This document shows, in pieces, positions 26,015-41,527 of a stretch of DNA of 41,617 bases (the first letter of the stretch is position 1; each line of letters opens with the position of its first letter). Made by a program: the position numbers and the translations under genes. Under the pieces are notes generated by a model, which was not told the DNA's origin, ran no database searches, and worked only from the letters and a program-made list of their open reading frames with translations. Origin of the DNA: an uncultured Alphaproteobacteria bacterium (GTDB taxonomy: Bacteria; Pseudomonadota; Alphaproteobacteria; RF32; CAG-239); assembly GCA_944393215.1 (NCBI GenBank), contig CALXZL010000002.1, forward strand, positions 205,226-246,842. The letters are read 5' to 3'.

Positions 26015-26106
26015 TTTTTTCACTTTTCTATGGAATTTTTTTTTTGAATCCTGTATCATCATTTTCGACTGGAGAATGTCGCCAGCGAAAAAAAGGATAG
26101 CATAAA

Positions 26107-27045
26107 ATGAAAAATGAATCAACTCTAAAAAATTCAAAACCCGTTTTTTCGGGTCATGAAACATTTCCTCTTAGGTACGGATGGCTGAAAAAAGTGTACG
26201 ATGCGGCTACCGCTGTGGAAGAAAAAAAAGGAAATATTTCCAAGGACTTATTCAATAATATTGAGGCAATTTCAATCCTCGGCGTTGGTAAAAACATGGT
26301 TTCATCAATGCGTTATTGGGCTCTTTATACAGGCATTTTAGCTGTGAATGAAGATAAAAATTTGTATGTCACAGACTATGCAAAAAAAATTTTCGCAGAT
26401 ACCGGCTTTGATCCATGGCTTGAAAACTATGCTACCCTTTGGCTAATACATTGGAATTTGGCGACAAATCCGAATTTGTTTACTTATTACTGGGTTTTCA
26501 ACAGGCTCAATGCGGCAACTTTTGACAAGGATTCACTTGTAGCCTCTATTCAGGAAGCTCTTTCTGAGTACGATTTACCGGATGTTTCCCTCTCTACTTT
26601 AAAGCGTGATGTTGAGTGCTTTCTGGGGGTTTATTCCACCCGTTCTGCAAAGGAAAAATCTAACGAAGAGAGCATTGAGTCACCGTTGACAGAGCTTGCC
26701 TTGATTTCGCCGCTTACACGTAGAGATTTGTTTCAAACAAAGGTCGGTGCAAAACCTAATTTATCCGTTTATACCTTTATTTTCGGGCTTCTAATGTTAT
26801 GGAAATTTTATTCTCCTAATTCTAAGACTTTATCCTTAGAAGCGATTTGTTACGAAGAAATGTCACCGGGGCGCATATTTCTTATTAATGAAAATGCTAT
26901 TGGAGATTTTGCCCAGAATATTTCTGAAGTTACAAATGGTTTGTTAGAATGGTCAGAAACAGCGGGACTAAAACAAATCTTATTAAAAAAGGATATAGAT
27001 TTTGAAAAAGAAGCCTTTAAGATCTTTGAAAGGAATTACAAATGA
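26107..27045 (+). CDS. sspB: SspB, DUF4007 protein of single-strand DNA phosphorothioation
   Basis: 312 residues. The N-terminus contains FSGHETFPLRYGWLKK, the diagnostic DUF4007 motif. A winged-helix-like central part follows (ISILGVGKNMVSSMRYWA), and then a C-terminal domain with TFIFGLLMLWKFYS. In characterised SspABCD systems the DUF4007 protein SspB introduces the strand nick that sspD and sspC use to replace a non-bridging oxygen by sulfur. The start has AAAGGATAGC upstream. Its stop overlaps the sspC start. The divergent sspA and the order B-C-D make the identification strong even without a database search. Confidence 0.88.
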   Translation: MKNESTLKNSKPVFSGHETFPLRYGWLKKVYDAATAVEEKKGNISKDLFNNIEAISILGVGKNMVSSMRYWALYTGILAVNEDKNLYVTDYAKKIFADTGFDPWLENYATLWLIHWNLATNPNLFTYYWVFNRLNAATFDKDSLVASIQEALSEYDLPDVSLSTLKRDVECFLGVYSTRSAKEKSNEESIESPLTELALISPLTRRDLFQTKVGAKPNLSVYTFIFGLLMLWKFYSPNSKTLSLEAICYEEMSPGRIFLINENAIGDFAQNISEVTNGLLEWSETAGLKQILLKKDIDFEKEAFKIFERNYK

Positions 27046-30000
27046 TGGAAAAAATGTCCGACATCGTAAAAATAAATACTAGATTTTGTCGTTCAATTAA
27101 CATTAATCAAGATCTTGGAAATGCCGATATTCTTGCAGGCTTTATTTGTCCTGCTTCGTCTGAAATTGCTTTGCTTAATATTGCTGAAAATGTATATGCT
27201 ACGGGGCAAGCCGCATTTACATGGACAGGCCCTTATGGTTCCGGTAAGTCTTCTCTTGCTTTGTTTTTATCAGCATTAATAGGCAAAGATAAAAAACTAC
27301 GCGCCCTAGCGCAAAGTTTATTTAAGGAATCTGCAAAAGAAGAATTTTACTCAAAAATCAAAGTAAATGACGGTTGGGAAATTCTTCCAATAATCGGCGA
27401 TAAACAGGATCCTGCGATACTCTTAAAAGAAGCTATTGAAAAGAAGCAAGGTAAAAAGTGCACAGACATTCTAAAATCAATACAAGAAATCGCCGATACA
27501 TCAGATGGACTGCTAATTTTTATTGATGAAATGGGAAAATGCCTAGAGAGTGCGGCAAAAGGTCAAGGCGACGTGTATCTGTTTCAACAATTAGCTGAGT
27601 ATGTATCAAGAAGCAATGGCAAAATAATCCTTATTGGAATTTTACACCAGGCGTTTGCAGAGTACGCACGTTATTTGCCGCATACTATCCGCGATGAATG
27701 GATCAAAATTCAAGGACGTTTTGTTGATACACCCATCAATACTGCCGGCGAAGAACAAATTGAATTGATTTCTAAAGCGATAACAACAGACTTTACCTCA
27801 TCATCAATAAAGGATGTTGTTGAAAAAACGGTTACGTCCATTGCAAAAAATAAACTTATTACATCAAAGGATGGTTTAACGCAGTCACTTCTTCACTGCT
27901 GGCCTATTTCTCCAGTAGTAGTTACGTTGCTAGCTCAAATTTCAAGAAAAAGATTTGGCCAAAACCAGCGCAGTATTTTCTCGTTCTTGAGTTCCGGAGA
28001 GCCGAAAGCATTCAGAGACTTTATTAACTCAACAAGTTTTTCCGATGATAAGATGTACATGCCGGAGGATTTGTTTGACTATCTGAAGCTAAATCTTGAA
28101 TCTTCTATTTTATCATCATCTGATTCAAAGATTTGGAACATTGCTACTGACGTTTTAGCACGTTGCCAAGCAAAAGGAGCTTCCCTGGAACACATAAATG
28201 TCTTAAAAACGATTGCTCTGATTGATATGTTTAATGGTGCTTCTGGCCTTGTTTCAAATGAAGAACTCCTCCAGGCACTTTATCCAAAGGCAAATATAAA
28301 AGCTATTATAAAAGATTTAACATCCTGGTCAGTCATTATTCTTAAAAAGCACTTAAACGCGTATTCAATTTATGAAGGTAGCGACTTTGACATAGAAAAA
28401 GCACTTGCTGAAGCGTATGCCGCAATTCCAACGCTTGAAATTCAAAAACTCGTTGATATTGCCAATTTCAAACCGATTATTGCAAAACGCCATTATCATA
28501 AATACGGATGCATGAGATGGTTAGATATTCTGCTTACCCCGGTTGAAAATTATAAAGAGTTCTTGAACCATGAACATGATCATAACAAGTCTGTTGGTTT
28601 TTTTGCTATCTTCCTCCCGCAAAACCCGACTGAGGAACAAAAAGCAACCGAAATAACGCAAGGAAAAAATAAATTTGATTTTCCTGTGTTTATGACTGTT
28701 GCAAAAAACACTCAGACAATTAATGAGTACTTAAAAGAATTGCTTTCCCTTGAGTGGATCCAAAAAAACAAAAATGAACTAGCAGGCGACCATATTGCAC
28801 GCCGTGAAATAGAAAATAGACGGTTAATCATTATTTCGTTGCTAGAAGTCCAATTGAATGAAATTTTAACGGCTTCTGATTGGTATAAAAATGGTGAGGC
28901 TTTAGGATTAATTAAGCAGAATGAATTTAGTATTTTAGCTTCCAAAGTCTGTGAACAAGTTTATCCAGAAACTCCAATCATCAAAAGTGAGCTGGTTAAT
29001 AGAACAAAGCCTTCAGGAAGTGCAAACAGCGCATTGAACAATTTATTAAAGGATATGGTTTTGCAAGAAGGCGAAGAACTTCTTGGTATCAAGGGATTCA
29101 CCCCGGAACGCGGCTTGTTTAACATTTTGCTTCAAGAAACTGGTATATATCGCCTAACAGATAAGGAAACATACGGATTCGGAGCACCAAGGGCCGAGAA
29201 TTTATTAAGCCTTTGGAAAACAACAGATTCAATGTTTAAAAAAGTTAAACGAGCTGTTTCATTGGCTGATGTTTATGAGCAATGGAGTAAGCCGCCGTTT
29301 GGTATAAAGGCCGGATTATATAATTTCCTTGCTCTTGCATATATGCTAAGCAGAAAAACAAAAATAGCAGTCTACAGAGACGGAACGTATATTCCTGAGA
29401 TAAATGACCTTTTAGTGGATTATTTATTGAAATCACCTAAAACCATTTCATTAAAATTGGTTGATGCAGATGATGTAACTGGTCATATTTTACCGGCAAT
29501 CGCACAATTATTAAATACGCTTCAATCTACAAATCAAATTCCATTGAACGCATCACCGTTGACAATTGCTCGTAAGTTAGTGCAGATCATTGATAAATTG
29601 CCGCCTTGGGTATTGAAAACTAAAACACTGTCAAAGCGGACGATAAAATTTAGGGAAATTGTTAAATCTGCAAATGATCCACATAAGTTGCTTTTAGAGG
29701 ATATTGAGAAAGTCTTTTATGATGAAGTGGAAAATAAAGACGGTGATAAGTCTGCCATTATTATTCAAAATCTGAAGGAAGCCATGGAGGAACTTATTAA
29801 TATTTATCCGGCAACAATGACCAACATTGCTTTGTTGCTGACAAATGAGCTGGATGTTCCTCTCGCCACGCCAACGCACTTGGAAAAGTTGCGTGAGCGC
29901 GCTAAGAATATCAAAGGCGTATCTGGCAATTTCAAAATTGATGCATTTGCGGCTCGTATTTCTACATTTAACTCCAGCCTTGCAGATATCGCTGGTATTG

Positions 30001-30344
30001 TAAGTTTGGCAAACAACAAACCACCGCATGACTGGATTGATCTTGATATTGAAAATGCTAAAAAGGAAATCTTAAACCTTTGTACCGAATTCAAGAAAGC
30101 TGAGTTATATACGAAAGTCAAAAATCGCCCAGCTTCACGACAGGCTGTCGCTTTTATTGCCGGTATCGGAAATAAAGCTGAAGTTATCGAGGGCGAATTT
30201 GATTTGCTTACCGATATGCAATCTGACGTATCTAATTTAAAAAACAAAATTAAAGATGCTGTTAAAGATACGACAAACAAAAACGTACTTTTAGCCGCAT
30301 TAACAGAAATTAGCATTGAGTATTTAAAGGCAGGAAATGACTGA
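27042..30344 (+). CDS. sspC: SspC, large ATPase of the phosphorothioation system
   Basis: 1100 residues. Walker A is GPYGSGKSS (residues 63 to 71) and Walker B LLIFIDEMGKCLE (about 157 to 169). An AAA-like sensor region follows (KIILIGILHQAFAEYARYLP). Beyond residue 350 the protein is a long helical array with no motif that I recognise. Length and position fit SspC, which supplies ATP-driven energy or DNA handling for sulfur insertion. Translation starts inside the sspB stop (ATGATGG), and its end overlaps the sspD start by eight bases, so B, C and D form one tightly coupled operon. T-rich codon use differs from the chromosomal flagellar genes, which fits acquired DNA. Confidence 0.85.
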   Translation: MMEKMSDIVKINTRFCRSININQDLGNADILAGFICPASSEIALLNIAENVYATGQAAFTWTGPYGSGKSSLALFLSALIGKDKKLRALAQSLFKESAKEEFYSKIKVNDGWEILPIIGDKQDPAILLKEAIEKKQGKKCTDILKSIQEIADTSDGLLIFIDEMGKCLESAAKGQGDVYLFQQLAEYVSRSNGKIILIGILHQAFAEYARYLPHTIRDEWIKIQGRFVDTPINTAGEEQIELISKAITTDFTSSSIKDVVEKTVTSIAKNKLITSKDGLTQSLLHCWPISPVVVTLLAQISRKRFGQNQRSIFSFLSSGEPKAFRDFINSTSFSDDKMYMPEDLFDYLKLNLESSILSSSDSKIWNIATDVLARCQAKGASLEHINVLKTIALIDMFNGASGLVSNEELLQALYPKANIKAIIKDLTSWSVIILKKHLNAYSIYEGSDFDIEKALAEAYAAIPTLEIQKLVDIANFKPIIAKRHYHKYGCMRWLDILLTPVENYKEFLNHEHDHNKSVGFFAIFLPQNPTEEQKATEITQGKNKFDFPVFMTVAKNTQTINEYLKELLSLEWIQKNKNELAGDHIARREIENRRLIIISLLEVQLNEILTASDWYKNGEALGLIKQNEFSILASKVCEQVYPETPIIKSELVNRTKPSGSANSALNNLLKDMVLQEGEELLGIKGFTPERGLFNILLQETGIYRLTDKETYGFGAPRAENLLSLWKTTDSMFKKVKRAVSLADVYEQWSKPPFGIKAGLYNFLALAYMLSRKTKIAVYRDGTYIPEINDLLVDYLLKSPKTISLKLVDADDVTGHILPAIAQLLNTLQSTNQIPLNASPLTIARKLVQIIDKLPPWVLKTKTLSKRTIKFREIVKSANDPHKLLLEDIEKVFYDEVENKDGDKSAIIIQNLKEAMEELINIYPATMTNIALLLTNELDVPLATPTHLEKLRERAKNIKGVSGNFKIDAFAARISTFNSSLADIAGIVSLANNKPPHDWIDLDIENAKKEILNLCTEFKKAELYTKVKNRPASRQAVAFIAGIGNKAEVIEGEFDLLTDMQSDVSNLKNKIKDAVKDTTNKNVLLAALTEISIEYLKAGND

Positions 30345-31173
30345 AAAAGTAAAACACGTTTTAGGAATATCGGGTGGAAAGGATAGCGCGGCTCTCGCTG
30401 TTTATATGCGTGATAACTATCCTGAGCTTGATATTGACTACTTCTTCACCGACACGGGAAAAGAGCTTCCTGAGGTTTATTCTTTTCTTAGCAAACTAGA
30501 AGGATATTTAGGTAAACCTATTTTGCGTATTAATCCGGATCGCGATTTTGACTTTTGGTTGATGCAACACAATAACTTCCTGCCATCGGCACAGGCCCGT
30601 TGGTGTACGATTTGCATGAAACTTAAACCTTTTGAGGCTTGGGTCGGCAAATTCTTAAATGACGGATATACCGTGTATTCATATGTTGCTATTCGCTCAG
30701 ACGAAGAATATCGCGAAGGCTATCAATCTCGCCATGAAAATCTAAAGGTAAAAATGCCCTTTAGAGAAAATGGAATTGATAAAAAAGGCGTTATTGACAT
30801 TCTTGAATACTCAGGGCTTGGATTGCCGGATTATTACAAATGGCGATCAAGAAGTGGTTGTACGTTCTGTTTCTTCCAAAGAAAGATTGAGTGGGTTCGC
30901 TTAATGGAGAAACACCCGGATGCTTTTGAGGAAGCAAAAAGTTATGAGAAAAAAGCCACCGCCAGCGGATCACCTTTCACATGGTCAGAGCATGAATCAC
31001 TCGAGGATCTATCAAAACCTGAGAGAGTAGCCCAAATTAAGCAAGATTATGAAAGACGTCTAGAGCGGCTGAAAAAGCAACGCATGGCAAATCCGCTTCG
31101 TCCTGATAATGAAGAAATCGATATAGATGATTTATATGGAAAATCAAAGGTATGTTTAGCATGTCACAAATAG
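30337..31173 (+). CDS. sspD: SspD, PAPS-reductase-like ATP pyrophosphatase of DNA phosphorothioation
   Basis: 278 residues. The PP-loop ISGGKDSAAL (from residue 11) activates the target by adenylation. Cysteine pairs C90/C93 (RWCTICMK) and C175/C178 (SGCTFCF) are placed as in DndC/SspD, where four cysteines hold an iron-sulfur cluster; an extra pair lies at the C-terminus (VCLACHK). The protein takes persulfide sulfur from SspA and places it on the DNA backbone. It starts inside the end of sspC (ATGACTGA). A 91-base gap with its own promoter separates it from the next module. The same fold is in PAPS reductases and DndC, and the neighbours decide the assignment. Confidence 0.9.
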   Translation: MTEKVKHVLGISGGKDSAALAVYMRDNYPELDIDYFFTDTGKELPEVYSFLSKLEGYLGKPILRINPDRDFDFWLMQHNNFLPSAQARWCTICMKLKPFEAWVGKFLNDGYTVYSYVAIRSDEEYREGYQSRHENLKVKMPFRENGIDKKGVIDILEYSGLGLPDYYKWRSRSGCTFCFFQRKIEWVRLMEKHPDAFEEAKSYEKKATASGSPFTWSEHESLEDLSKPERVAQIKQDYERRLERLKKQRMANPLRPDNEEIDIDDLYGKSKVCLACHK

Positions 31174-31264: not shown

Positions 31265-33445
31265 ATGAGCCTAAAGGAGATACCCATAAAGCGGGAATAC
31301 CGCCCCGAAGATAATGTCGTGAGGAATTTTTATATTCCTCTGCTTTCTTCTGCTATCTCTTATCAGCGTGCTGTGGGCTTTTTTTCTTCCACAATTCTTG
31401 CTGAAATTGCCGTTGGAATATCTGCGCTCGTTCGCAATAATGGTAAGATCCAAATAGTTGCATCTCCTTACCTATCGGATGAAGATGTTGAAGCAATAAA
31501 AATGGGGTATAAGGCCCGGGACGAAGTCGTAAAAGATTCTATACTAAATGCTCTTGAGGATCCTAAATCTGACTTTGAAAAAGAAAATCTCAATTTGTTA
31601 GCAAATTTAATTGCAGACAGTGTTCTTGATATAAAAATTGCGTTTACTGAAAAAGGTCACTCGTTTGGTATGTACCACGAAAAGATGGGAATTATCTCGG
31701 ATGCCGAAGGAAATCGTGTGGCTTTCTCAGGATCCTTGAACGAGACATTTAACGCTGTTCATTTTAATTATGAAACAATAGATGTTTATTGCTCATGGAA
31801 GACTGAGGATGTAGAGCGCGTTAACGATAAAATCTCAGCTTTTGAACGTATTTGGAATAATGACGAAGCTAATATCACTATCATTGATTTCCCGGAATTA
31901 AAAGACGAAATGATCAGAAAATATAAACGAGAAAAGGTTGATTATGAAAAATTCGTAGAGCCGAAACTTCCGGATATCATCGACGCTCCGATAAAGATGG
32001 AAGTTTTGAATCGTCCGACCATGCCTGATTGGCTTGATTTACATGACTACCAAGAATCTGCAATTGAAGAATGGGCCAAACGTGGCTACAGAGGCATTTT
32101 TGATATGGCCACAGGTACAGGTAAAACATTAACTGGCTTAAGTGCGATTACAAAAATTTCAAAAGACCTAAATAATAAGTTGGCAGTAATTGTTGTCGCT
32201 CCCTATCAACACCTCGTTGATCAATGGTGCGAAGATATTGAAAAGTTTAACATAGCACCAATTATTGGCTACAGTTCATCACCGCAACGAAATTGGTTAG
32301 ATCGTCTTAAGAATGCAATCTTTGATCAAAACCTTGGAGTAAAGAACAGCGAGTTTTTCTTATTCGTTTGTACCAATGCGACATTTGGTCTTGAACGTAC
32401 ACAAGCACAGTTAGCAAAAATTAAAGGCGATGTACTTTTGGTAATTGATGAAGCTCACAATGCTGGTTCCGCCTCCTTTGAAAAGCTCCTTAATCCAAAA
32501 TATAAGTATAGGTTAGCACTTTCAGCTACACTTGACAGACATGGGGACGAAGAAGGTACACAACGTCTTTATGACTATTTCGGCGAAAAATGTATTACAT
32601 ATCCTTTAGACCAGGCGATTGAAGCTGGATGGTTAACTCGTTATTATTATCATCCTATTGTCGTGACTTTAGAGCCTGATGAATTAGAAGAATACATAGG
32701 CCTTTCCCGTGAAATTGGAAAATGTATAATTTGGGGCCGTGATGGGAAAAAACAGTTGAACGAACGCGGCAAAAGATTAGCTCTTGCTCGCGCTAGGATT
32801 GTGAGTGGAGCACGACAAAAACTGTCAGCTTTACGTCGTGAAATTGAACCGTTTAAGGATGACAAGTTTATTTTAGTCTATTGTGGTGCCACAAATGTTT
32901 TGCCGGATGATCAGGATAGATCCTCAACTGATGAAAATGATATTAGACAGGTTGAAGCAGTTTCTAGTATTTTAGGAAATGAACTCGGCATGAAGAGTGC
33001 ACGTTTCACTTCTGATGAGGATATGAGCGAGAGAAAAATAATCAAAGAACAATTTTCAATGGGCAATTTACAAGCTCTGGTTGCTATTAAATGTCTTGAT
33101 GAAGGTGTTAATATCCCAGCCATAAGAACTGCATTTATATTAGCAAGCACTACAAACCCAAAAGAATACATCCAACGCCGAGGAAGAGTTTTACGCCTGA
33201 GTAAAGGTAAGGAATATGCGAATATATATGATTTTATCACGCTTCCGCGGCCAATTGATACAGCACATTATCTTACAGATGACCAGGCGAAAATGGAGTT
33301 GTCACTAATTAAGTCAGAAATCAAACGAGCTGAGGAATTCGCTCGCATTTCTATGAATAAAATGGACGCTATGAAACTCATTGATTCAATCAAAGAGGCA
33401 TATAGTATTGATAAATACTTACTACTTGATGAGGAGGTTTTATGA
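31265..33445 (+). CDS. PLD-nuclease/DEAH-helicase fusion, probable restriction effector
   Basis: 726 residues. Residues of about 20 to 210 look like a phospholipase D-type nuclease domain: YHEKMGII (H138, K140) followed by FSGSLNET, the single HxK...S/N arrangement of restriction-type PLD domains. Residues of about 255 to 660 are a superfamily 2 helicase: DYQESAIEEW, MATGTGKTL (Walker A, 281 to 289), VIDEAHNAGS (DEAH, 395 to 398), ALSATLDR (motif III), LDEGVNIPAI and QRRGRVLR (motif VI, 637 to 644). The same fusion occurs in DNA phosphorothioation-associated restriction enzymes (TIGR04095-like). It probably cleaves DNA lacking the modification. Its stop overlaps the next small gene. Confidence 0.8.
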   Translation: MSLKEIPIKREYRPEDNVVRNFYIPLLSSAISYQRAVGFFSSTILAEIAVGISALVRNNGKIQIVASPYLSDEDVEAIKMGYKARDEVVKDSILNALEDPKSDFEKENLNLLANLIADSVLDIKIAFTEKGHSFGMYHEKMGIISDAEGNRVAFSGSLNETFNAVHFNYETIDVYCSWKTEDVERVNDKISAFERIWNNDEANITIIDFPELKDEMIRKYKREKVDYEKFVEPKLPDIIDAPIKMEVLNRPTMPDWLDLHDYQESAIEEWAKRGYRGIFDMATGTGKTLTGLSAITKISKDLNNKLAVIVVAPYQHLVDQWCEDIEKFNIAPIIGYSSSPQRNWLDRLKNAIFDQNLGVKNSEFFLFVCTNATFGLERTQAQLAKIKGDVLLVIDEAHNAGSASFEKLLNPKYKYRLALSATLDRHGDEEGTQRLYDYFGEKCITYPLDQAIEAGWLTRYYYHPIVVTLEPDELEEYIGLSREIGKCIIWGRDGKKQLNERGKRLALARARIVSGARQKLSALRREIEPFKDDKFILVYCGATNVLPDDQDRSSTDENDIRQVEAVSSILGNELGMKSARFTSDEDMSERKIIKEQFSMGNLQALVAIKCLDEGVNIPAIRTAFILASTTNPKEYIQRRGRVLRLSKGKEYANIYDFITLPRPIDTAHYLTDDQAKMELSLIKSEIKRAEEFARISMNKMDAMKLIDSIKEAYSIDKYLLLDEEVL

Positions 33446-33618
33446 CCGAAGAAAAAGTAATGCAAAACAACACCGAAATTGATGTTAAAAAGGCTCAGAT
33501 GATTTTGAAAAAAATCATTGTAAAAGAGAATAATAACATTAAGCGAAAAGACAAAAACGATGGTGAAATGGTAAAAATGATCCAAAAGTTGATCGAGGAG
33601 GAAGTAAAATGCTATTAA
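33442..33618 (+). CDS. 58-residue coiled-coil protein between helicase and ATPase
   Basis: It starts at ATG 33442 with a very strong ribosome site (GAGGAGG), overlapping the helicase stop (ATGA), and ends at 33618, overlapping the ATPase start by ten bases in another frame. The product is basic and helical (TEIDVKKAQMILKKIIVKEN, then KMIQKLIEEE). No family is recognised. The excellent ribosome site and the overlaps on both sides make it a real gene. A small adaptor between helicase and ATPase is a plausible inference. Confidence 0.65.
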   Translation: MTEEKVMQNNTEIDVKKAQMILKKIIVKENNNIKRKDKNDGEMVKMIQKLIEEEVKCY

Positions 33619-35609
33619 AATCCATAAAAGTAAAAGATTTTAGACAATTTAAAGGAGAGCAGTATGTTTCTTTCTCTACTGATCCTGAACGCAATGTAAC
33701 CATCATTCAAGGTGATAATGGTGCTGGTAAAACATCTTTTGCACAAGCCTTTCGTTGGTGTTTATATGGCGAAACTGACTTTTCTAACAAGACTCTATTA
33801 TCAATGGCTGTTTCAGATCAAATGTTGCCAGGAGATGAAAAAGATGTTCAGGTTGAAATTTGCCTGGTACACAATGATATAGAGTATACCGTAACAAGAC
33901 GTCAAAGATATAAAAAGGATACGGCAAATAGAATTTCTAATTCGGGTCGTAATAAGTTTGTTATTTCATATAAGAAAAGTGACGGTAACACTGAATATGT
34001 CCCCGAATTAGAAACAGAGTTAAAGATGAAGGAAATTTTACCGGCTGATCTTTCTCGCTATTTCTTTTTTGACGGCGAACATATTGACCATATGGGAAAA
34101 GAAATTCGTAATGGACGTAGCTCCGATTTTGCAGATGCTGTTCGTAGTCTTTTGGGATTAAATGCTTTTATTGCAACATTAAATCACCTTAAAGGAAACG
34201 GGAAAAACTCCGTTATTGGTCGTTATAATGAAAGTTATAATGCCGGTGCAGATGAAACTCTCTCTCAACTTATTAAAAACATTAATTCATACAATGAAAG
34301 AATATCAGCGATTGACAAACGCTTGAACGAGTTAGAACAACAAGATGCCTTTGCAAATGATAAATGCCAACAATTGAGACTCAGAATTGAAAAAAATCAA
34401 GATAGTAAAGAATTGGCCGAAGAGAGAAATAAGTTGGAAAAAGAACTTGCAGGGCTAGAAGTTACAAAGAAAGAAAAGACTGGATTACTTCTGAAAAATT
34501 TTAATGCCCATGCACCAAGGTACTTCTCGAAAAAAATGATGAAAGATGCTCTAGAATTATTAAAGAGTGCTGAACAGTTAGATAAAGGAATTCCTGATGT
34601 AACAGCAAAAACTATAGATTACTTGCTTGCACGAGGATATTGCTTGTGTGGCCATAAAATTGAGATTGGCGATGATGCATTTAACGCTCTCAATAAATTA
34701 AGAGACTTCATTCCTCCGAAATCAATTGGTAGTTTGATCTCAGATTTTAGTTCATCCTGTCAGGAGAAAACTGCGAGTACCTCTAGCTTCTTTGATAACT
34801 TTCAAGATATAATTAAGTTCATTCGTGAGTTTGATAATAACAGAAATACACTTGAAGATAGACTTAAAAAGATCAAAGAAAGACTCCTCGGAATGGAAAA
34901 TGTTGGAGCTCTACAGCAAGAATTGACCAACTATGAACGTGATATTAGAAAGAATTCAGATGAGCGTGATAATCTAAATCAAGAAAAAGGTGTTGCACAA
35001 AGTAAGCTCCAGAGTGACGAAGAAAAGCGTAGTTCTCTTGCAATCGGCGATGCCAACAATAGAAAAATTGAAACGTATCGTGCTTATGCTGAATATATGT
35101 ATAATACACTTAAACAAGAGTATGACATTAAAGAAACAGAAACTCGTGAACAATTAGCTAAAACAGTTAATACGATCTTTAAGAAGATTTATAACGGTGG
35201 TTTTTCGCTTTCGCTTGATGCAAAATATAACATCATATTGACCGCCGATGGAAGAAGTAAGGCAAATGACGATGACAACATAGAAACTTCAACAGCACAA
35301 AGTATTTCAATTATTTTTGCATTTATTGCCGGCGTGATTAAAATGGCAAAAGAAAATCAAGGTTCTGATGAACGTTTAGCCCAAACGGAGCCTTATCCGC
35401 TCGTTATGGATGCTCCTCTTTCTGCTTTCGATGAAAAGAGAATAGACACTGTATGCGATGTACTACCCAAAATTGCAGAACAAATTATTATTTTTATAAA
35501 TCCAAAAGATGGTAAATTAGCAGAAGATAATCTTGGTTTAAGAATTGCTAAACGCTATACATTTACAAAGAAAACAGAATTTGAAACTGATTTGATGGAG
35601 GTAGGCTAA
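33609..35609 (+). CDS. DndD/Rad50-like ATPase with a central CxC hook
   Basis: 666 residues. The N-terminus is IKVKDFRQFKGEQYVSF followed by IIQGDNGAGKTSFAQAF (Walker A, residues 35 to 43), as in DndD, Rad50 and RecF. A long coiled coil fills the middle. It is interrupted near residue 345 by GYCLCGHKI, which sits where Rad50 and DndD carry a zinc hook (usually CxxC; here CxC). The C-terminal ATPase half has SISIIFAFIAGVIKMAKEN and the Walker B-like PLVMDAPLSAFDEKRID. In Dnd systems DndD is part of the modification complex; here it stands outside sspABCD, next to a helicase-nuclease, so it is more likely part of restriction. It ends one base into the following start. Confidence 0.82.
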   Translation: MLLKSIKVKDFRQFKGEQYVSFSTDPERNVTIIQGDNGAGKTSFAQAFRWCLYGETDFSNKTLLSMAVSDQMLPGDEKDVQVEICLVHNDIEYTVTRRQRYKKDTANRISNSGRNKFVISYKKSDGNTEYVPELETELKMKEILPADLSRYFFFDGEHIDHMGKEIRNGRSSDFADAVRSLLGLNAFIATLNHLKGNGKNSVIGRYNESYNAGADETLSQLIKNINSYNERISAIDKRLNELEQQDAFANDKCQQLRLRIEKNQDSKELAEERNKLEKELAGLEVTKKEKTGLLLKNFNAHAPRYFSKKMMKDALELLKSAEQLDKGIPDVTAKTIDYLLARGYCLCGHKIEIGDDAFNALNKLRDFIPPKSIGSLISDFSSSCQEKTASTSSFFDNFQDIIKFIREFDNNRNTLEDRLKKIKERLLGMENVGALQQELTNYERDIRKNSDERDNLNQEKGVAQSKLQSDEEKRSSLAIGDANNRKIETYRAYAEYMYNTLKQEYDIKETETREQLAKTVNTIFKKIYNGGFSLSLDAKYNIILTADGRSKANDDDNIETSTAQSISIIFAFIAGVIKMAKENQGSDERLAQTEPYPLVMDAPLSAFDEKRIDTVCDVLPKIAEQIIIFINPKDGKLAEDNLGLRIAKRYTFTKKTEFETDLMEVG

Positions 35610-36130
35610 TGTTATTTACACACGATTATTCCTTTAAGGGGGCTCATGCTGAAAAAGTTAAAGCACTTGTTGGCCACAAATTTGATAAAGAACACACTCT
35701 TTTTGAGAGAAATATGGACGTGTATTTAATGGCCCCGGTTGTCGGTTTTTTGTATAGCCGGAAAGCTGAACTAGATAAAAGTAAGCCATCAACTACAAAT
35801 ATCTTAGCAGAAATCATGATTAAATATCAAAAAGAGCTTACATTCACATATCGTCTTGTCATGTTGTTAGATAAGGAATATGAGCCTGATACCGAAAAGC
35901 GCATTAATAAGGCTTTTAGAGATTATGCAAAAGAAGATACTAAAGATCTGGAAGAGTACGACAGCTATGTTCGTGGTGGCGTTGATGTCCTATATGAAAA
36001 GCTGATGAAGGATGCAACACAAGCTGATGATTACATCAGAAATCTGTATGAATTTATGGCAGATTTTGAAGACCGTTATTCACAAAATTCAGATGAAATT
36101 ATGGATTTGTGTGAGCTGGCCAGAGAATAA
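35609..36130 (+). CDS. 173-residue helical protein of the restriction module
   Basis: It starts at ATG 35609, the last base of the ATPase stop codon (TAATG), so it is translationally coupled. The ribosome site is GGAGGTAGG. It is nearly all helix (for example TTNILAEIMIKYQKELTFTY, KRINKAFRDYAKEDTKDLEE). It has no signal peptide, metal motif or catalytic motif that I can recognise. The tight coupling suggests a complex with the DndD-like ATPase. In position it could be the third component of an SspFGH-like set, but I cannot confirm the family. Confidence 0.7.
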   Translation: MLFTHDYSFKGAHAEKVKALVGHKFDKEHTLFERNMDVYLMAPVVGFLYSRKAELDKSKPSTTNILAEIMIKYQKELTFTYRLVMLLDKEYEPDTEKRINKAFRDYAKEDTKDLEEYDSYVRGGVDVLYEKLMKDATQADDYIRNLYEFMADFEDRYSQNSDEIMDLCELARE

Positions 36131-36141
36131 ATGGGGGCATT

Positions 36142-36651
36142 ATGACCGATGAGACAAATAAAATTGTACAAGAGCTTTTTCAAAAATCCCATCGCTTTCT
36201 TGCCGAGGACGAGGTAGTAAGTGCGGCACTTGAAGCAAAACTATCTCTGTTCGAGACAAACGCTGTCATTGAAGCTCTTATAGCTAAAGGTGTCTATATA
36301 TCGGATAACATTCAAGATGCGTTAAAACAGGTTTGCAAAGACAAAGTGGAAAAAGTAAGCACAGGAATGTCTAGAAAATCGCCAGAGAGTGCTACAACAT
36401 TTTCTATGTTACGAATACCAGCTGGCTCGAAACTTACTTTTTTAAAGGATCGCAATATTGTTGCAATTACTCTTGATGAAACAAATAGAATTAGATTAGA
36501 GGATGAATCTCTTGAGGGTTCAACATCTAGATTAGCACAAATCCTTGCTGTAAAGTTCGGCTACGCTGATGTTGCACGCCAAGGACCTCGTTGGTGGTTA
36601 TACCAAGGTCAAACACTCCTTGCTATAAGGGAAGAACTAGAGAACGATTGA
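36142..36651 (+). CDS. Winged-helix-like protein with a RAMA-type C-terminal domain
   Basis: 169 residues. Residues 1 to 55 (IVQELFQKSHRFLAEDEVVS, then SLFETNAVIEALIAKGVYI) resemble sigma70 region 1.1 or a small winged helix, and match in pattern the N-terminus of the next gene. Residues of about 85 to 166 look like a RAMA/DUF4357-type domain: TFSMLRIPAGSKLTFLKDR, then SLEGSTSRLAQILAVKFG, and the terminal RWWLYQGQTLLAIREE with its W and R positions. RAMA domains are predicted to read modified DNA and occur beside modification enzymes. Here the modification in reach is phosphorothioation. It lies between the 173-residue gene (11-base gap) and the sigma-like gene (one base between stop and start). 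The domain call is from pattern memory. Confidence 0.65.
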   Translation: MTDETNKIVQELFQKSHRFLAEDEVVSAALEAKLSLFETNAVIEALIAKGVYISDNIQDALKQVCKDKVEKVSTGMSRKSPESATTFSMLRIPAGSKLTFLKDRNIVAITLDETNRIRLEDESLEGSTSRLAQILAVKFGYADVARQGPRWWLYQGQTLLAIREELEND

Positions 36652-36652
36652 G

Positions 36653-37714
36653 ATGGCGAATGAAGCAAAGCAAAAAATCATTGATCTTTTGACGGACCTG
36701 TACAAAACAAACGGTTATGTAACAGAAGATGAAGTTTTTGAGCTTTCAGAACGCGAAAATCTTTCAGTTTTTGATATAAATTACATTACAGAGTATTTGC
36801 TCTCGCATGGAGTTATAATAAGCGAAGAAAAAGAAAAAATAACCACTAAAAAAGGACGTGGATACAGGCGCGATCATACAAAATTCTTTAAGGAAATTTC
36901 AAAGGAATACAAGGACCTTAAATTTTTTATTAGATATTATAATTCAATTGATGGCTTGGCTGAAGGAGAATGGGTCACTCTGATACAACAGGCGCGACAT
37001 GGGAATGAGTGGGCTAGAACAAGATTGTTTGATACCTCAATGCAGAAAACAATAAAACAAGCCTATGCTGTTTCAAAAAAATTCGACTTGGACTTTGAAA
37101 ATACACTGCAGGCTTCATCTTTTGGAATCCTGTATGCAATAAGCGCATTTGATGAAACGGAACACTCTTCGTTCCCTTCTTATGTTCCTCTCGCTGTTAA
37201 TAGTCAGTTGCGACGAGATGTTTATCTTCATTCAAACCCTGTCATTGATTTTCCAACGTACTTGATGAACGATTTCTTCAAAATTCATACTCTTGTAAAA
37301 GAACATAATTGTAGCGAATGCGCATATAGCAATAACAAATTAACGTGTGAAAATTTACGTAATGAGATCCAAGATAAATTAAAATCAACCGCAGAGGAAG
37401 TTGATGAATGTATTAAATACTTACAACCGCTTGAAGATTTATGGGAAGATACTTGCATAGATGATTCGGATATCACTAAAGGCTTACGTGAGAATGAAAT
37501 GAGAATAAGTGTAAATCAACTACTATCGCATCTAAAACCTCAAGAGGAAGAAGTTATCCGAATGCGCTTTGGAATTGATAGTGAAGAATATTCGCTAGAA
37601 AGCATTGCACAGATAAAATCCGTAACCAGACAGCGAATTCAGCAGGTTGAGGTAAAGGCACTTGATAAATTGCGACAGCTTGCTAGAAGTGTCTTAAAAG
37701 TTGAAAGACCATAA
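36653..37714 (+). CDS. Sigma70-family protein encoded in the phosphorothioation cluster
   Basis: 353 residues. Residues 1 to 57 are a region-1.1-like winged helix similar to that of the preceding gene. Residues of about 105 to 190 match sigma region 2 (HGNEWARTRLFDTSMQKTIK, DFENTLQASSFGILYAIS, FPSYVPLAVNSQLRRDV), although the usual -10 recognition residues are poorly kept. Residues 217 to 234 hold a cysteine cluster (C220, C223, C232) not normal in sigma factors. Residues 285 to 345 are a good region 4 (LKPQEEEVIRMRFGID, SLESIAQIKSVTRQRIQQVE, ALDKLRQLA) with its helix-turn-helix. It may direct RNA polymerase to defence genes or have been recruited for DNA recognition. It is the last gene of the operon before a terminator. 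Confidence 0.8.
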   Translation: MANEAKQKIIDLLTDLYKTNGYVTEDEVFELSERENLSVFDINYITEYLLSHGVIISEEKEKITTKKGRGYRRDHTKFFKEISKEYKDLKFFIRYYNSIDGLAEGEWVTLIQQARHGNEWARTRLFDTSMQKTIKQAYAVSKKFDLDFENTLQASSFGILYAISAFDETEHSSFPSYVPLAVNSQLRRDVYLHSNPVIDFPTYLMNDFFKIHTLVKEHNCSECAYSNNKLTCENLRNEIQDKLKSTAEEVDECIKYLQPLEDLWEDTCIDDSDITKGLRENEMRISVNQLLSHLKPQEEEVIRMRFGIDSEEYSLESIAQIKSVTRQRIQQVEVKALDKLRQLARSVLKVERP

Positions 37715-37724
37715 ATAAAAAAAT

Positions 37725-37754
37725 CCCCGCAGGTGTTATTCCCGCGGGGTTTTT
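37725..37754. terminator. Bidirectional terminator between the sigma-like gene and HU
   Basis: CCCCGC (37725..37730) pairs with GCGGGG (37744..37749), with five T after it on the plus strand. On the minus strand the stem is followed by ATTTTTTTAT, so it also ends HU transcripts. Confidence 0.8.
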
Positions 37755-37770
37755 AGAAACTTTATAAAAT

Positions 37771-38043
37771 TTATTTCACTGCATTTTTCAAAACTGCACC
37801 GGCTTTGAACTTAGGAGCTTTTGTTGCAGCAATTTTGATTTCTTTACCAGTTCTTGGGTTACGGCCTGTACGAGCAGCTTTTTTAACAACATCAAATGTA
37901 CCAAAACCAGTTAATTGAACAGCTTCACCTTTTTTCAAAGATTTTGTAATAACAGCTAAACAAGCATCAACAGCAATTGTAGCTTGTGCTTTTGTCATTC
38001 CTGCAGCTTCAGCAACAGCTGCTACGTATTCAGTTTTATTCAT
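37771..38043 (-). CDS. HU-family DNA-binding protein
   Basis: 90 residues, starting at ATG 38043 with AAGAAAGGAAA upstream; a longer open frame has no ribosome site. The pattern MNKTEYVAAVAEAAGMTKAQ, then VQLTGFGTFDVVKKAAR and TGRNPRTGKEIKIAATKAP, is a standard HU, including the arm sequence RNPRTG. HU bends and packages DNA and helps recombination and phage packaging. It has its own promoter and terminator and lies downstream of phage lysis genes, so it may be a phage copy, although a host gene at the junction is possible. Confidence 0.93.
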   Translation of the reverse strand: MNKTEYVAAVAEAAGMTKAQATIAVDACLAVITKSLKKGEAVQLTGFGTFDVVKKAARTGRNPRTGKEIKIAATKAPKFKAGAVLKNAVK

Positions 38044-38101
38044 GTTTAATTTTCCTTTCTTAACGTTAAGTTTATAGAGGTTCATGACACCTACGCTTAT
38101 G

Positions 38102-38130
38102 ATTCGAGCCATTTTCCGAGGAAAAGTCAA
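38102..38130 (-). promoter_or_regulatory. Candidate promoter for HU
   Basis: On the minus strand: TTGACT (38130 to 38125), a 17-base spacer and TCGAAT (38107 to 38102). It sits between the end of the o-spanin gene (38141) and the HU start. Confidence 0.45.
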
Positions 38131-38140
38131 ACAAAATCTT

Positions 38141-38335
38141 TTAATTTGTACATAAATCATCGTAAACCACATTGTTTCTATCAATTTGACGGACAGTTTC
38201 CGGGGTGTCATGCTCATAATCTGCATACACCGGCTCATATAACAGGCAAAAATCACCGTTTATATTTGTTGTGCAACCGCTCAACGCGCTTAAGGCTAGC
38301 CAGGCTATCCCAACTTCTTTTAGCTGTTTTAACAT
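38141..38335 (-). CDS. Rz1-like outer-membrane spanin lipoprotein
   Basis: 64 residues. The lipobox ALSALSGC gives cleavage before C20 and a 45-residue mature lipoprotein. The C-terminal pattern (VYADYEHDTPETVRQI, then NNVVYDDLC) is that of small phage o-spanins annotated as Rz1-like. With the inner-membrane spanin it fuses the two membranes at the end of lysis. Its start lies inside the 3' part of the i-spanin gene in a different frame, the typical nested Rz/Rz1 arrangement. Confidence 0.75.
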   Translation of the reverse strand: MLKQLKEVGIAWLALSALSGCTTNINGDFCLLYEPVYADYEHDTPETVRQIDRNNVVYDDLCTN

Positions 38336-38474
38336 TGTCCACCGTTCCTTTCATTACTTTGACTTGTTCTTTTTCCTTGCCGCGCCGATAGCCGAGCATA
38401 TATAAGACGGCCACCGCTCCGGTGATTATCCAGTATTTACCATTATTCCAAAGTTTTGTTATTCTGTTCAACAT
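38253..38474 (-). CDS. Rz-like inner-membrane spanin
   Basis: 73 residues: one membrane segment (YWIITGAVAVLYMLGY) near the N-terminus, followed by a basic helix (RRGKEKEQVKVMKGTVDNVK) that could form a periplasmic coiled coil. It is short for an i-spanin but is paired with the overlapping Rz1-like lipoprotein gene (38141..38335). The start overlaps the end of the holin-like gene by 32 bases. Confidence 0.65.
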   Translation of the reverse strand: MLNRITKLWNNGKYWIITGAVAVLYMLGYRRGKEKEQVKVMKGTVDNVKTAKRSWDSLASLKRVERLHNKYKR

Positions 38475-38661
38475 CTTGTTTTTGCCTTTCCTTTAATCCA
38501 ATATCTCGTGCGCCACTGACACCGAGTAAAATGCCCATGGCCGTTAATAAATATTCCCAGTCTACTACCGGCAGGCCCGTTATAGGTGCGATCAGGCAGT
38601 TGTGCAGAAATCCGTAACACAGGATCCACCCGAGAACCGGGATCCAAAGCCGCTTTTTCAT
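38443..38661 (-). CDS. Holin-like membrane protein
   Basis: 72 residues with two to three hydrophobic segments (LWIPVLGWILCYGFLHNCLI, then WEYLLTAMGILLGVSGARDI) and a short charged C-terminus (KERQKQDVEQNNK). This is the size and layout of small phage holins, which form holes in the inner membrane to release the endolysin. The start overlaps the endolysin stop by four bases (ATGA). Confidence 0.65.
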   Translation of the reverse strand: MKKRLWIPVLGWILCYGFLHNCLIAPITGLPVVDWEYLLTAMGILLGVSGARDIGLKERQKQDVEQNNKTLE

Positions 38662-39065
38662 GCCATTTGTATTCCTTTCAATAGAGTTTCATTAGAGTAT
38701 GGCTGTATGCCGTTTTCATGTCTGATGATTGCCTTAATAAAGACCAGTAAGACACCATCTTCCGAAAGGTCGACCGGTGTGTCCGGAGTGATGTTTAACT
38801 GCCGGGACACGCTGTCTATATATGAAACTGTTTCGTTTTCGGTTGGTGGTGCATACCGGCTGATAATCTTCCGGGGCGTGTTCAGGCCATAGAGTTGCTT
38901 ATAGTTACGAAGTAATTTGGCCAACGCCCGGATACCATATTCCGGTGTTTTAAATATACAAAAGGACGGGTCTTGCTGTTTCCCGTCCTTTTTTAATCCT
39001 TTCCAGTCCGAACCCCAACGGATGTTCCCAGGGTTGTTATTTCTTATGCCGCGTGGTGTGTTCAT
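38658..39065 (-). CDS. Phage endolysin-like peptidoglycan hydrolase
   Basis: 135 residues from ATG 39065 (MNTPRGIRNNNPGNIRWG). A longer frame to 39179 overlaps the previous gene. The N-terminal RGIRNNNPGNIRWG with FKTPEYGIRALAKLLRNY is typical of phage muramidase/transglycosylase-like structural proteins (P5-type). The C-terminal half has DTPVDLSEDGVLLVFIKAII and the HENG motif. It lies between a coiled-coil membrane protein and a holin in the lysis module. The catalytic mechanism is inferred. Confidence 0.75.
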   Translation of the reverse strand: MNTPRGIRNNNPGNIRWGSDWKGLKKDGKQQDPSFCIFKTPEYGIRALAKLLRNYKQLYGLNTPRKIISRYAPPTENETVSYIDSVSRQLNITPDTPVDLSEDGVLLVFIKAIIRHENGIQPYSNETLLKGIQMA

Positions 39066-39279
39066 TGTGCATTTCCCATAAAAGCTGATGTAATTCATCA
39101 ATCTTTGTCTCCAGGCGATTGATGTTAACCTGAGTGGCATATTCCTTGGCCACCGCAACTTTGAACTCGTTGAGGTCACGCTCGAGGTTTTTTAATTCCT
39201 TGCGCTGTTCGCCGAGCTTATAAAAAAACCAGCCAAAGGCCGGTACGCAGATGATCTGTAAAAATTGAATCCAATCCAT
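39037..39279 (-). CDS. Small phage membrane/coiled-coil protein
   Basis: 80 residues from ATG 39279 (AAAGGACAAAC upstream), starting MDWIQFLQIICVPAFGWFFY, a single membrane segment. A heptad-rich coiled coil follows (KELKNLERDLNEFKVAVAKE, then INRLETKIDELHQLLWEMHN). Its end overlaps the endolysin start by 29 bases. Proteins of this shape in lysis clusters may be holin partners or antiholins. The family is unknown. Confidence 0.6.
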   Translation of the reverse strand: MDWIQFLQIICVPAFGWFFYKLGEQRKELKNLERDLNEFKVAVAKEYATQVNINRLETKIDELHQLLWEMHNEHTTRHKK

Positions 39280-39292
39280 TGTTTGTCCTTTC

Positions 39293-41527
39293 TTAGTTGG
39301 TGTGAACTCTTGAGTCCTCAATTGCCGCTGTGATTTCAACTTTACCGGAACGCGGTTTTATCCCGGTAACGCGTGCCAAGGTTCCCCATTTATCCTGAGT
39401 TCCAAAGGCAAAATGTGTCCGTTCTGAGTTCGTGCCGGTTTCAATTTCAATGTCCGGCGTTTCTTGCAAGATGACCTCATTTGGCAGTGATCCGGCTGTT
39501 ACCCGGTATGGTCCGGAAAGGCTCCCGGTTCGAGTTCTTAAAGCCAAATAGTGATTTTGGCCCTCGGTAAACTCAACCGGTTCAGATAGCGTTAAAGTCA
39601 TGTCATTTTTTGACAGTATTTCACCGCCTGAACCCCAATGCGGCATATCATGCGTGATAGAAATCAAATCCCCATAGCTTGGAATCAGACCTTCCAGTTC
39701 GGTTGAAAATGTTACAATGCGCCGGCGATATCGGTTGGCCAACGCCATATAGATGGCCTCCCGGAGAGCTTGGTTTTTATCGGTACAACCGAAAAGCTCA
39801 ACAGTTGCCGTCTTATCCGAGGTGGATCCTACAAAACTGCCGGTTATCTCTGAGTTCTTCCAAGTCCGGTCCGAAAAATACTGAACACAAACGCTGTCCG
39901 CCGTATCTTCAGACGGCATGATATATTGAATTGTCAAGCTGTTTTTAACGATATTTCTTGGTCCGAACAGCGCAACCGGTATTGATTTTGGCTCATCCCG
40001 GACAAAGCGAACAATTCCGCCTTGAATGTAGGGAACGGAACGTCCGACTTTGCAGGTACGCGACAAGGCATCATAAACCGTTAGTTTGGAATCAAAGACG
40101 GCATTAAACGTGTCACCGCGTGCGGCCCAAATCTGATCCAGCCGGTATAAACCTTCAAGATCTATGGACTTATCGGTCAGCCTTGCACCATAGTTGGCCT
40201 TTAAGATATCGGCTATAGCCCACGCAATAGAGCGTGTCGGCACTCTGCCGGTCCAGCCACCAGACGGCGACCATGTCGGCAATTTTCTTGTCACGATGCA
40301 GTTAAGCATGCGGCTTGAACGTTGTGATAGGTTGTTTGTGGCTTTCATTTTAACGGCGATCAATGTTACGTCGCCGTAACTTGGGCTCGATACAATAAAC
40401 CCTTTTGCCGAAGCCCATCTAATTTCATGTCCGGCGCGTGAAGATGTGTCTTTTACATCTAAACGAACGGCGCGAACCTCGTATCTTCCGCTGGCGACAG
40501 CATATGAGTAAGTGCGGAACATGCTATTGTGGTTATTTGATGTAAATGATTCGCTACCCAGTGTAAACCAATCACCAAGGGGGAAATCCTCATCGTCAAT
40601 TAGCCTTGCATCAATGCGCCATTGAATGGTTTTATTGTCCATGCCTCCGTTGTTGTTTGCATAATAAAGGCCTCTTTGAAAAGCTACATCAATTTCTATT
40701 TTATCGATAACGCTTTCGGTCGGATTTAATACAAAAGGTCCACATACCTCATCTTTTAGCAGTTCTTGCCCGGCAACTTCAGGCGAAGTTACAACATCAT
40801 CACGAAAGAGCGTATTTTGCTCGCCCGGATTGATTATTTGGTATGTAATCTCTTCAAATGAATTAATCGGAGTATCTTCAATTCTTATTTGTTCGATATT
40901 GTATTCACCTTGACCGATGCAGTGGAGCTGATAAACATACTGCTCATCATTTACATATCCGTAATAAGGCTGACTGGCAAAATCCGGATAAATCAAATGC
41001 CGTCCGTAAATAACCGGTATCGGGCTACCGAGCCTTGCTTGGTTTCCTTGAGCTTGTAAAGAGTAAGTCGGACTTTGCGCCGCTATGGAGTTGGCCGAGC
41101 CGGACCCATTAAGCGATGCCCTTGGGGTGGGAACAAATGTATTAACCAAAAAGCTCCCGGCCATAGAGACACCGGCCGCCGCAACGCCACCCCATACAGC
41201 ACCATAAGCTGCTCCTACAGCACCGCCAGTATAAACAGAAGCAACCACAACGGCCACCATCAAAACAACTTGAATAGGGTTTGATGACTTTTTACCGCCA
41301 CCGCCTTGTGGTAAAGTGATGAAGCAGACCAAGGATTTCGGCTGAACGGTATCGTTCCAAAACTTCCTGAGGACTGCGGCACCGTCTATCATGCATATTG
41401 TCGGGCGCGAAAGGTCCACTTTCTGTTCCCGGACCATGTCCCAAACGGTTTTGCCGTCATCAAGGACATTGTCTATCCGACCCTTATTCGGCTGAAAAGG
41501 GTTTGTAATGTGTGAAAAGTAAATCAT
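39293..41527 (-). CDS. TipJ-like phage tail tip / host specificity protein
   Basis: 744 residues. Beyond the first 75 residues is a glycine-rich hydrophobic stretch (VVLMVAVVVASVYTGGAVGA). Then comes YSLQAQGNQARLGSPIPVIY, the typical central-straight-fibre/TipJ signature (conserved G...P.YG... in tail tip J proteins), with Y-Q-L-H-C-I-G-Q-G-E-Y and further beta-rich domains to the end. The C-terminus has no knob domain like lambda gpJ, so it is a short version. It forms the tail tip of a siphophage and contributes to host recognition. It is transcribed leftward toward the lysis genes and is strongest evidence that the right part is a prophage. Confidence 0.82.
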   Translation of the reverse strand: MIYFSHITNPFQPNKGRIDNVLDDGKTVWDMVREQKVDLSRPTICMIDGAAVLRKFWNDTVQPKSLVCFITLPQGGGGKKSSNPIQVVLMVAVVVASVYTGGAVGAAYGAVWGGVAAAGVSMAGSFLVNTFVPTPRASLNGSGSANSIAAQSPTYSLQAQGNQARLGSPIPVIYGRHLIYPDFASQPYYGYVNDEQYVYQLHCIGQGEYNIEQIRIEDTPINSFEEITYQIINPGEQNTLFRDDVVTSPEVAGQELLKDEVCGPFVLNPTESVIDKIEIDVAFQRGLYYANNNGGMDNKTIQWRIDARLIDDEDFPLGDWFTLGSESFTSNNHNSMFRTYSYAVASGRYEVRAVRLDVKDTSSRAGHEIRWASAKGFIVSSPSYGDVTLIAVKMKATNNLSQRSSRMLNCIVTRKLPTWSPSGGWTGRVPTRSIAWAIADILKANYGARLTDKSIDLEGLYRLDQIWAARGDTFNAVFDSKLTVYDALSRTCKVGRSVPYIQGGIVRFVRDEPKSIPVALFGPRNIVKNSLTIQYIMPSEDTADSVCVQYFSDRTWKNSEITGSFVGSTSDKTATVELFGCTDKNQALREAIYMALANRYRRRIVTFSTELEGLIPSYGDLISITHDMPHWGSGGEILSKNDMTLTLSEPVEFTEGQNHYLALRTRTGSLSGPYRVTAGSLPNEVILQETPDIEIETGTNSERTHFAFGTQDKWGTLARVTGIKPRSGKVEITAAIEDSRVHTN

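Follow-up and report, generated by a model that had tools for sequence, protein, structure and literature searches.

The 41,617-nucleotide stretch of DNA analysed here (the window) comes from an uncultured alphaproteobacterium. It carries an Ssp module for DNA phosphorothioate modification joined to a Pbe restriction module, the type with a CxC-type ATP-binding cassette (ABC) ATPase, and two extra genes at the 3′ end of the same operon. These last two genes, which encode a RAMA-like protein and a sigma-70-derived protein, are the main concern of this analysis. The window lies at the end of one contig (CALXZL010000002.1, positions 205,226–246,842) in a source genome of 1.72 Mb and 27 contigs. 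On the + strand the gene order is sspB, sspC, sspD, PbeA, a 58-amino-acid open reading frame (ORF), PbeC, a gene at the PbeD position, the RAMA-like gene and the sigma gene. Neighbouring operon genes are spaced by −10 to +11 bp, with the exception of sspD and PbeA, which are 91 bp apart. From position 35500 to the end of the sigma gene, a sigma-70 pattern scan finds no promoter-like site on the + strand, and the sole + strand terminator-like site is weak and lies inside the sigma gene. We infer that the operon is co-expressed.

The Ssp module is complete, and all four genes are matched by PADLOC models. The SspA-type cysteine desulfurase (24833–26164, − strand; SspA 1.4e-136, DndA 3.1e-134) is encoded divergently from the operon, and its listed start is probably too early, the first residue in family matches being 70–71. 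SspB, a DUF4007 protein (26107–27045, + strand; SspB 2.4e-94, Pfam DUF4007 7.8e-77), is followed on the same strand by the SspC ATPase (27042–30344; E value of 0, 1161.7 bits) and by SspD, which resembles 3′-phosphoadenosine-5′-phosphosulfate reductases (30337–31173; 3.8e-136). The arrangement of sspBCD with a divergent sspA is that of known SspABCD loci. The restriction partner in the window is a Pbe-type module, and neither SspE nor SspFGH was recognised among the genes scanned. An earlier note on this DNA had assigned the RAMA-like and sigma genes to a phosphorothioate operon, and the SspABCD matches together with the gene order bear this out.

All genes of the Pbe module are on the + strand. 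PbeA (31265–33445; PADLOC PbeA 1.3e-246) is a fusion of a phospholipase D (PLD; HKD) nuclease-type domain with a superfamily 2 (SF2) helicase. NCBIfam TIGR04095 matches it at 5e-154, yet under that model's cut-off; Pfam ResIII and Helicase_C are above cut-off, and PLDc_2, at 25.7 bits, is just short of its cut-off of 27. The 58-amino-acid charged ORF (33442–33618), which overlaps both neighbours, is a candidate PbeB by position and size only, and an NCBIfam search with it gave no match. PbeC (33609–35609; PADLOC PbeC 1.9e-104) has a CLC motif and is an ABC ATPase of the CxC-hook type. The gene directly after it (35609–36130) probably encodes PbeD, the cognate of DndE. Scans of this protein with hidden Markov model (HMM) libraries, Pfam and PADLOC among them, gave no match, and an hhalign comparison with nine PbeD-position proteins gave a probability of 42.5 and an E value of 2.6e-4.

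The same gene order is found in the PbeABCD or CxC-ABC-ATPase module as presented in the available text of two studies (Xiong 2019, PMC6459918; Rakesh 2024, PMC10853773), including PbeA with PLD and SF2 helicase parts, a small PbeB-like ORF, the CxC ABC ATPase and a DndE-position protein. There the module is coupled to Dnd, whereas in the window it is coupled to Ssp; the Ssp–Pbe combination is also present in Rhizobium indigoferae, in Sphingomonadaceae OTU29MARTA1 and in two further genomes. The RAMA-like protein and the full-length sigma-derived protein that follow Pbe in the window are described in neither study, as far as the available text goes. The pair belongs to the same operon as sspBCD, but its direct neighbour is the Pbe module.

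The sigma-70-derived protein (36653–37714, + strand) consists of a region-1.1-like N-terminus, a degenerate region 2, a region 3 and a conserved region 4, and is alignable with RpoD from about residue 75 to residue 346. Its regions were compared with an RpoD reference of 18 proteins (drawn from 19 loci in genomes of the class, after a 365-amino-acid protein was set aside), and with nine control sigmas: a Burkholderia aenigmatica plasmid protein with ordinary regions 2 and 4, and eight proteins of 281–369 amino acids from the class. Region 4 matches Pfam at 4.4e-12 and keeps 25 of 45 RpoD-invariant residues (controls 16–26), and region 3 keeps 9 of 44 (controls 6–13); these two counts shift slightly with a different alignment and a different endpoint for region 4. 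In region 2 only 11 of 65 such residues are kept, compared with 23–32 in the controls, and there is no match to Pfam Sigma70_r2. The second copy of the gene, termed SIG57 and found in another genome, gives 26, 8 and 12 for regions 4, 3 and 2. Region 2 is the only region that departs from the control sigmas, and its reported degeneracy is therefore confirmed.

The changes in region 2 affect its tryptophan pair and its core-contact segment. The tryptophan pair of region 2.3, kept in all nine controls, is Leu-Ala in the sigma protein, and the RpoD segment LDLIQEGN reads ENTLQASS, or KDTLQASS in SIG57. In Escherichia coli these positions serve in the contact with core polymerase and in the melting of the −10 element. 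In region 3 the stretch that matches the region 3.2 finger is shortened, and an insertion carries H218, C220, C223 and C232; C253 and C268 are conserved too. The cysteine cluster to which the earlier note drew attention is thus real.

Comparison of the window with SIG57 gives ratios of non-synonymous to synonymous substitution (dN/dS) of 0.09 for the whole sigma gene and 0.08 for the RAMA-like gene. Within the sigma gene, region 2 has a ratio of about 0.03, from 4 non-synonymous and 22 synonymous changes; region 4 has one of 0.10, and the first 65 residues one of 0.23. It should be kept in mind that these ratios come from two sequences only and that dS is very high in PbeC, PbeD and the RAMA-like gene. 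Because of the ratio of about 0.03, region 2 is seen as altered but constrained; decay is rejected, within the same limits of two sequences and very high dS nearby, and region 2 looks repurposed rather than decaying.

Perhaps the protein is a genuine, divergent alternative sigma factor that controls the operon or other genes, with the RAMA-like protein as a co-regulator. By analogy with the controller proteins of restriction–modification systems, it might for instance allow the restriction genes to be expressed only after host DNA has been modified. The RpoD alignment that runs from before region 2 to region 4, the N-terminus that resembles region 1.1, a region 4 conserved to the level of the control sigmas and the position of the pair as the last genes of the operon are all in keeping with this. 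But in region 2 other residues stand in place of the core-contact and tryptophan segments, the finger is shortened, and between 35500 and 38300 there are 6 promoter-like sites where 8.2 are expected, in a sigma-70 pattern scan that is blind to other promoter types. We regard an alternative sigma as a minority possibility.

A sigma factor is known from another defence system, as the available text of PMC9523054 names MzaA as the sigma factor of the MZA anti-phage system. Both MzaA and the window protein are sigma-70-family proteins within a defence system, but the MzaA model has 726 positions, of which RpoD matches the last 480, and the score of the window protein, 69.4 bits, falls short of the curated cut-off of 800. 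Identity with MzaA is rejected on this score. The model is matched at E ≤ 1e-60 in 178 of 190 genomes by RpoD-like proteins, none of which is above the cut-off. Since the RpoD-like proteins of most genomes give such sub-cut-off matches, a weak match to MzaA means just "sigma".

The RAMA-like protein (36142–36651, + strand) has an N-terminal domain (residues ~1–60), a linker and a C-terminal domain (~85–169). The C-terminal half matches PADLOC PDC-S57 (4.8e-14) and a PHROG family without known function (9e-5). Pfam RAMA itself gives no match to the protein, and in its family it matches one of 11 members, at an E value of 0.097, which is not over the cut-off. The alignment of this family consists of the two RAMA-like proteins and nine of 11 related C-termini (those of L031 and L034 omitted). 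When it was compared with 12 Pfam-RAMA-positive domains, which from their length and end we take to be CcrM-like, profile–profile homology was found with a probability of 95.3 and an E value of 2.4e-8. The RAMA-type domain that the earlier note had proposed is therefore supported by profile comparison, and this domain probably binds DNA. That it reads phosphorothioate is a guess.

Relatives of the RAMA-like protein are few and incomplete. Matches at E ≤ 0.01 occur in 10 of 385 genomes of the class, its own and nine others, and in the nine others all 11 matching places cover the C-terminal part only (query start at 58 or later). A plasmid search of 72,556 records with the protein gave just one distant C-terminal match. 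The two of the 11 relatives that were profile-scanned both have a T5orf172 nuclease-type N-terminus. These GIY-YIG (T5orf172)–RAMA proteins, the PDC-S57 type of PADLOC, share the C-terminal RAMA-type domain with the window protein at up to 43% identity, but carry a nuclease-type domain where the window protein has a region-1.1-like one. GIY-YIG–RAMA fusions are mentioned in the available text of PMC11037411, which also states that the preference of the RAMA protein MPND for methylated adenine could not be confirmed.

Sequence comparison shows that the N-terminal domains of the RAMA-like and sigma proteins are related, as the earlier note had claimed, and chance is rejected as the source of the similarity. 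The N-terminus of the sigma protein scores 15.7 bits (E value 0.015) with Pfam Sigma70_r1_1, below the cut-off of 22.5, and the RAMA-like protein does not match this model. One reading of the common domain is that the sigma protein occupies RNA polymerase and so poisons transcription of the host or of a phage, as an abortive effector, with the RAMA-like protein as its inhibitor or antitoxin-like partner. Two genes that are one base apart and encode a common N-terminal domain would suit competition for one site, or its masking. The RAMA-type domain, however, suggests DNA and not an inhibitor, and a poison and inhibitor pair is improbable.

Of wider interest than the exact pair is the recurrence of sigma region 4 in other Pbe loci, which is observed directly. 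A total of 23 other PbeA records were examined, 17 of the 27 matching plasmid records and all six other loci among 398 genomes. For region 4 an HMM was made whose input was the RpoD set plus three single proteins: that of the window, the Burkholderia control and that of Ruegeria. This HMM detects a sigma-4 protein in eight of the 23 records, one weakly (seven of 17 plasmids and one of six genome loci). The protein is encoded before PbeA in Ruegeria, Pontibrevibacter, Arthrobacter, three L. plantarum plasmids and one genome (G643), and after the PbeD-position gene in Aurantiacibacter. The L. plantarum E values are 9e-6, 2e-4 and 0.021. Pfam gives independent matches to the Ruegeria protein and to that of L. 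plantarum PC518. As regards the count, L. plantarum H103 is a second, origin-cut entry of a plasmid already counted and was scored as none; the contigs of G487 and G638 end close to PbeA, and absence there says little; and two Rhizobium Dnd–Pbe loci found via the Ruegeria protein are outside the 23 records. The earlier note held that loci of this kind are without a sigma factor. The eight records, which include the Dnd–Pbe loci of Ruegeria and Pontibrevibacter, partly contradict this, as does the single mention of sigma in the available text of PMC10853773, a sigma-related helix-turn-helix inside some DndH proteins.

Five of these sigma-4 proteins (Ruegeria, Aurantiacibacter and the three of L. 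plantarum) were profile-scanned. Region 4 is present in all, one being weak (E value 0.018), region 2 gives no match in any, and in two L. plantarum proteins weak matches extend into region 3. Matches resembling the C-terminal domain of the RNA polymerase alpha subunit (alpha-CTD) occur in the Ruegeria protein, under the Pfam cut-off, and in that of Aurantiacibacter. Several of the Pbe-locus proteins are named "sigma factor-like helix-turn-helix DNA-binding protein" in RefSeq; they share region 4 with the window protein, but are 437–1141 amino acids long where annotated and, in the five scanned, are without a region 2 match. Genes with an embedded sigma region 4 beside Pbe genes lie at L042 5876–8956, L053 5903–8956, L039 3018–6266, L071 4753–7995, L073 4579–8004 (weak), L049 10926–13979, L051 6761–8986, L054 13615–14928, L074 8866–11112 and L081 8779–11073, with alpha-CTD-like matches at L042 and L054. 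The hosts are Proteobacteria, an Arthrobacter and L. plantarum. In the L. plantarum plasmids (L039, L071 and L073) PbeA is a helicase of about 460–475 amino acids that aligns to the window PbeA from residue 257–259 and has no PLD-match part, and a protein of 1080–1141 amino acids with a clear to weak sigma-4 match lies directly upstream of it. An association of sigma proteins with Pbe is not described in the available text of PMC10853773, PMC6459918, PMC8092258, PMC12839542 or PMC12707154, nor did any title or abstract among the papers listed in a literature search describe this pair or a sigma protein at a Pbe locus.

The exact pair is rare. At E ≤ 1e-20 the sigma protein is found in two of 153 genomes of the family, its own and one other (G789, whose coordinates are those of SIG57), and at E ≤ 1e-18 in one of 398 genomes of a phylum sample, again its own. 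In 84,980 species genomes a pattern scan, sensitive to close relatives only, had SIG57 as its one match. The order in SIG57 is that of the window: part of sspB, then sspC, sspD, PbeA, PbeC, PbeD, the RAMA-like gene, the sigma gene and an HU-like gene. PbeA is split there into two ORFs and has a 71-bp repeated junction (L002 5756; window 32411–32481); identity to the window is 96% before the junction and 83% after it, and the junction may represent recombination or an assembly join. The earlier note had looked for the pair to recur beside sspBCD. Among 289 genomes of the class, six others carry SspD. The stretches fetched from these six contain no homologue of sigma-4, RAMA-like or N-terminal type; one of the stretches stops just past sspD and another inside PbeC.

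The rarity of the pair bears on the question of whether it is simply cargo of an adjoining prophage or hypervariable site, perhaps phage-derived and functionally unlinked to the defence module. Prophage endolysin and tail genes are close downstream (38140–41527), and have 67% DNA identity to a human-gut contig (L096 461–3565). The best PHROG match of the sigma protein is the phage sigma family phrog_351 (7e-21, 75.5 bits), with a score slightly higher than those of the MzaA and RpoD models. A phage collection of 50,697 records contains 33 that match the protein at E ≤ 1e-5; 30 of them are at 22–27% identity and cover 54–73% of it, two are short matches at 42–47%, and one is a close piece at 82%. 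This piece, in the human-gut contig just mentioned (MT839233.1, from faeces, 4,464 bases), is a relic that retains just the C-terminal 67 residues encoded by the sigma gene. It adjoins the same prophage end and tail genes in the absence of the operon, and its upstream DNA is unlike that of both the window and SIG57. The sigma gene may itself be of phage origin. Scans of viral contigs with the sigma, PbeC and RAMA-like proteins, sensitive to close relatives only, found none. The operon is thus probably at a site of gene turnover beside the prophage, which may be a cargo-exchange site. But the pair is tightly spaced to the PbeD-position gene with no + strand promoter-like site and just the one weak internal terminator-like site, and in both copies the two genes stay with PbeC and PbeD, as parts of a single stretch of 83% identity. 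Unlinked cargo is accordingly an unlikely explanation.

We tentatively propose, at somewhat less than even chance, that the pair serves as a targeting arm accessory to the Pbe/CxC-ABC restriction module, which in this operon is coupled to Ssp modification. In this view the sigma-derived protein would have lost the promoter opening of a normal sigma. Its intact region 4 would dock on promoter −35-like DNA, on the flap of RNA polymerase, or on both, and the rebuilt regions 2 and 3 with the cysteine cluster would make some other contact. The RAMA-like protein would bind DNA and signal its modification state, and through the common N-terminal domain the two proteins would meet or compete for one site. 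The PbeA helicase-nuclease, with PbeC and PbeD, would then be licensed on DNA that is incoming, unmodified and transcribed. Each part suits its proposed role. A region 4 that binds −35-like DNA and the flap, without the promoter-opening parts, is what a docking subunit would need, and a RAMA-type domain could read the state of DNA; the common domain would allow mutual binding or rivalry for one partner; and a helicase-nuclease module beside Ssp modification must tell incoming DNA from its own. It is from these features that we infer complex formation, DNA reading, polymerase docking and the link to restriction.

A number of points weigh against this proposal. For the RAMA-like protein AlphaFold2 gave a poor model (mean predicted local distance difference test score 49.7), and a Foldseek search with it gave no match in the Protein Data Bank (PDB) at E ≤ 0.001. 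The N-terminal domain has only a modest profile relation to RpoD region 1.1 (probability 62), an HMM of that region scores at background level, and searches of PDB sequences for matches to the RAMA-like protein, A3 and A5 gave none at E < 0.4. The modest profile relation and the lack of a meaningful PDB match would also fit a generic small winged-helix resemblance between the two N-termini, without a common partner, but this we consider very unlikely. The pair is known from two genomes only. As to the other Pbe loci, the region-4 scores of Ruegeria and Pontibrevibacter arise partly by construction of the HMM, and the sigma-4 proteins resemble the window protein in little beyond region 4; a role common to them and the window protein is only a possibility. 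In the other 15 of the 23 PbeA records the visible stretch lacks a sigma-4 protein, which is therefore not essential to Pbe.

The available text of the original Pbe study reports that viral DNA cleavage was not seen (PMC6459918), and a later analysis makes a case for cleavage (PMC10853773); in the available text of neither study are parts of the transcription machinery given a role in Pbe. A recurrent sigma-4 component, together with the reader and sigma pair, leads to the testable idea that RNA polymerase or promoter DNA directs restriction or is coupled to it. If true, this would clearly exemplify the rebuilding of a sigma factor, under selection, for a non-sigma role. From the sequence, the pair is most likely a sigma-derived docking subunit and a modification-reading partner that serve the Pbe nuclease. 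The earlier interpretation is right in outline, with two wrong premises, the absence of sigma from such loci and the travel of the pair with sspBCD. More speculative, and on balance unlikely, is the broader concept that a captured and rebuilt sigma and its reader sister form a two-part sensor that steers the Pbe helicase-nuclease to unmodified DNA located at promoters or at a transcribing RNA polymerase, with the region-4/alpha-CTD proteins acting likewise in other Pbe loci and transcription-coupled restriction being a general mode of CxC/Pbe systems.

Several minor features flank the operon. At its end is an inverted repeat (37725–37749), a possible two-way terminator. A terminator scan calls it on the − strand only, where it would serve the opposite HU-like gene; by reading, the + strand has six outer G–C pairs, a mismatch and then TTTTT, and the repeat may terminate both strands. 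The HU-family-like ORF, also identified by reading, directly follows the operon (37771–38256; in SIG57, L002 11118–11438), and is not matched by any DNA of the human-gut phage-collection contig. A WYL-domain protein, possibly a regulator of the locus, is encoded upstream of ssp (23688–24623); one is likewise found near ssp on the Mesorhizobium plasmid pOM4 (L037). In this ssp locus, as read from annotation, and in L075, L076, L079 and L080, as read from ORFs, a run of genes stands where the Pbe module would be; their products look like a helicase, an ATPase of GHKL/MORC type and a PLD-like protein, and possibly constitute a further Ssp effector module.
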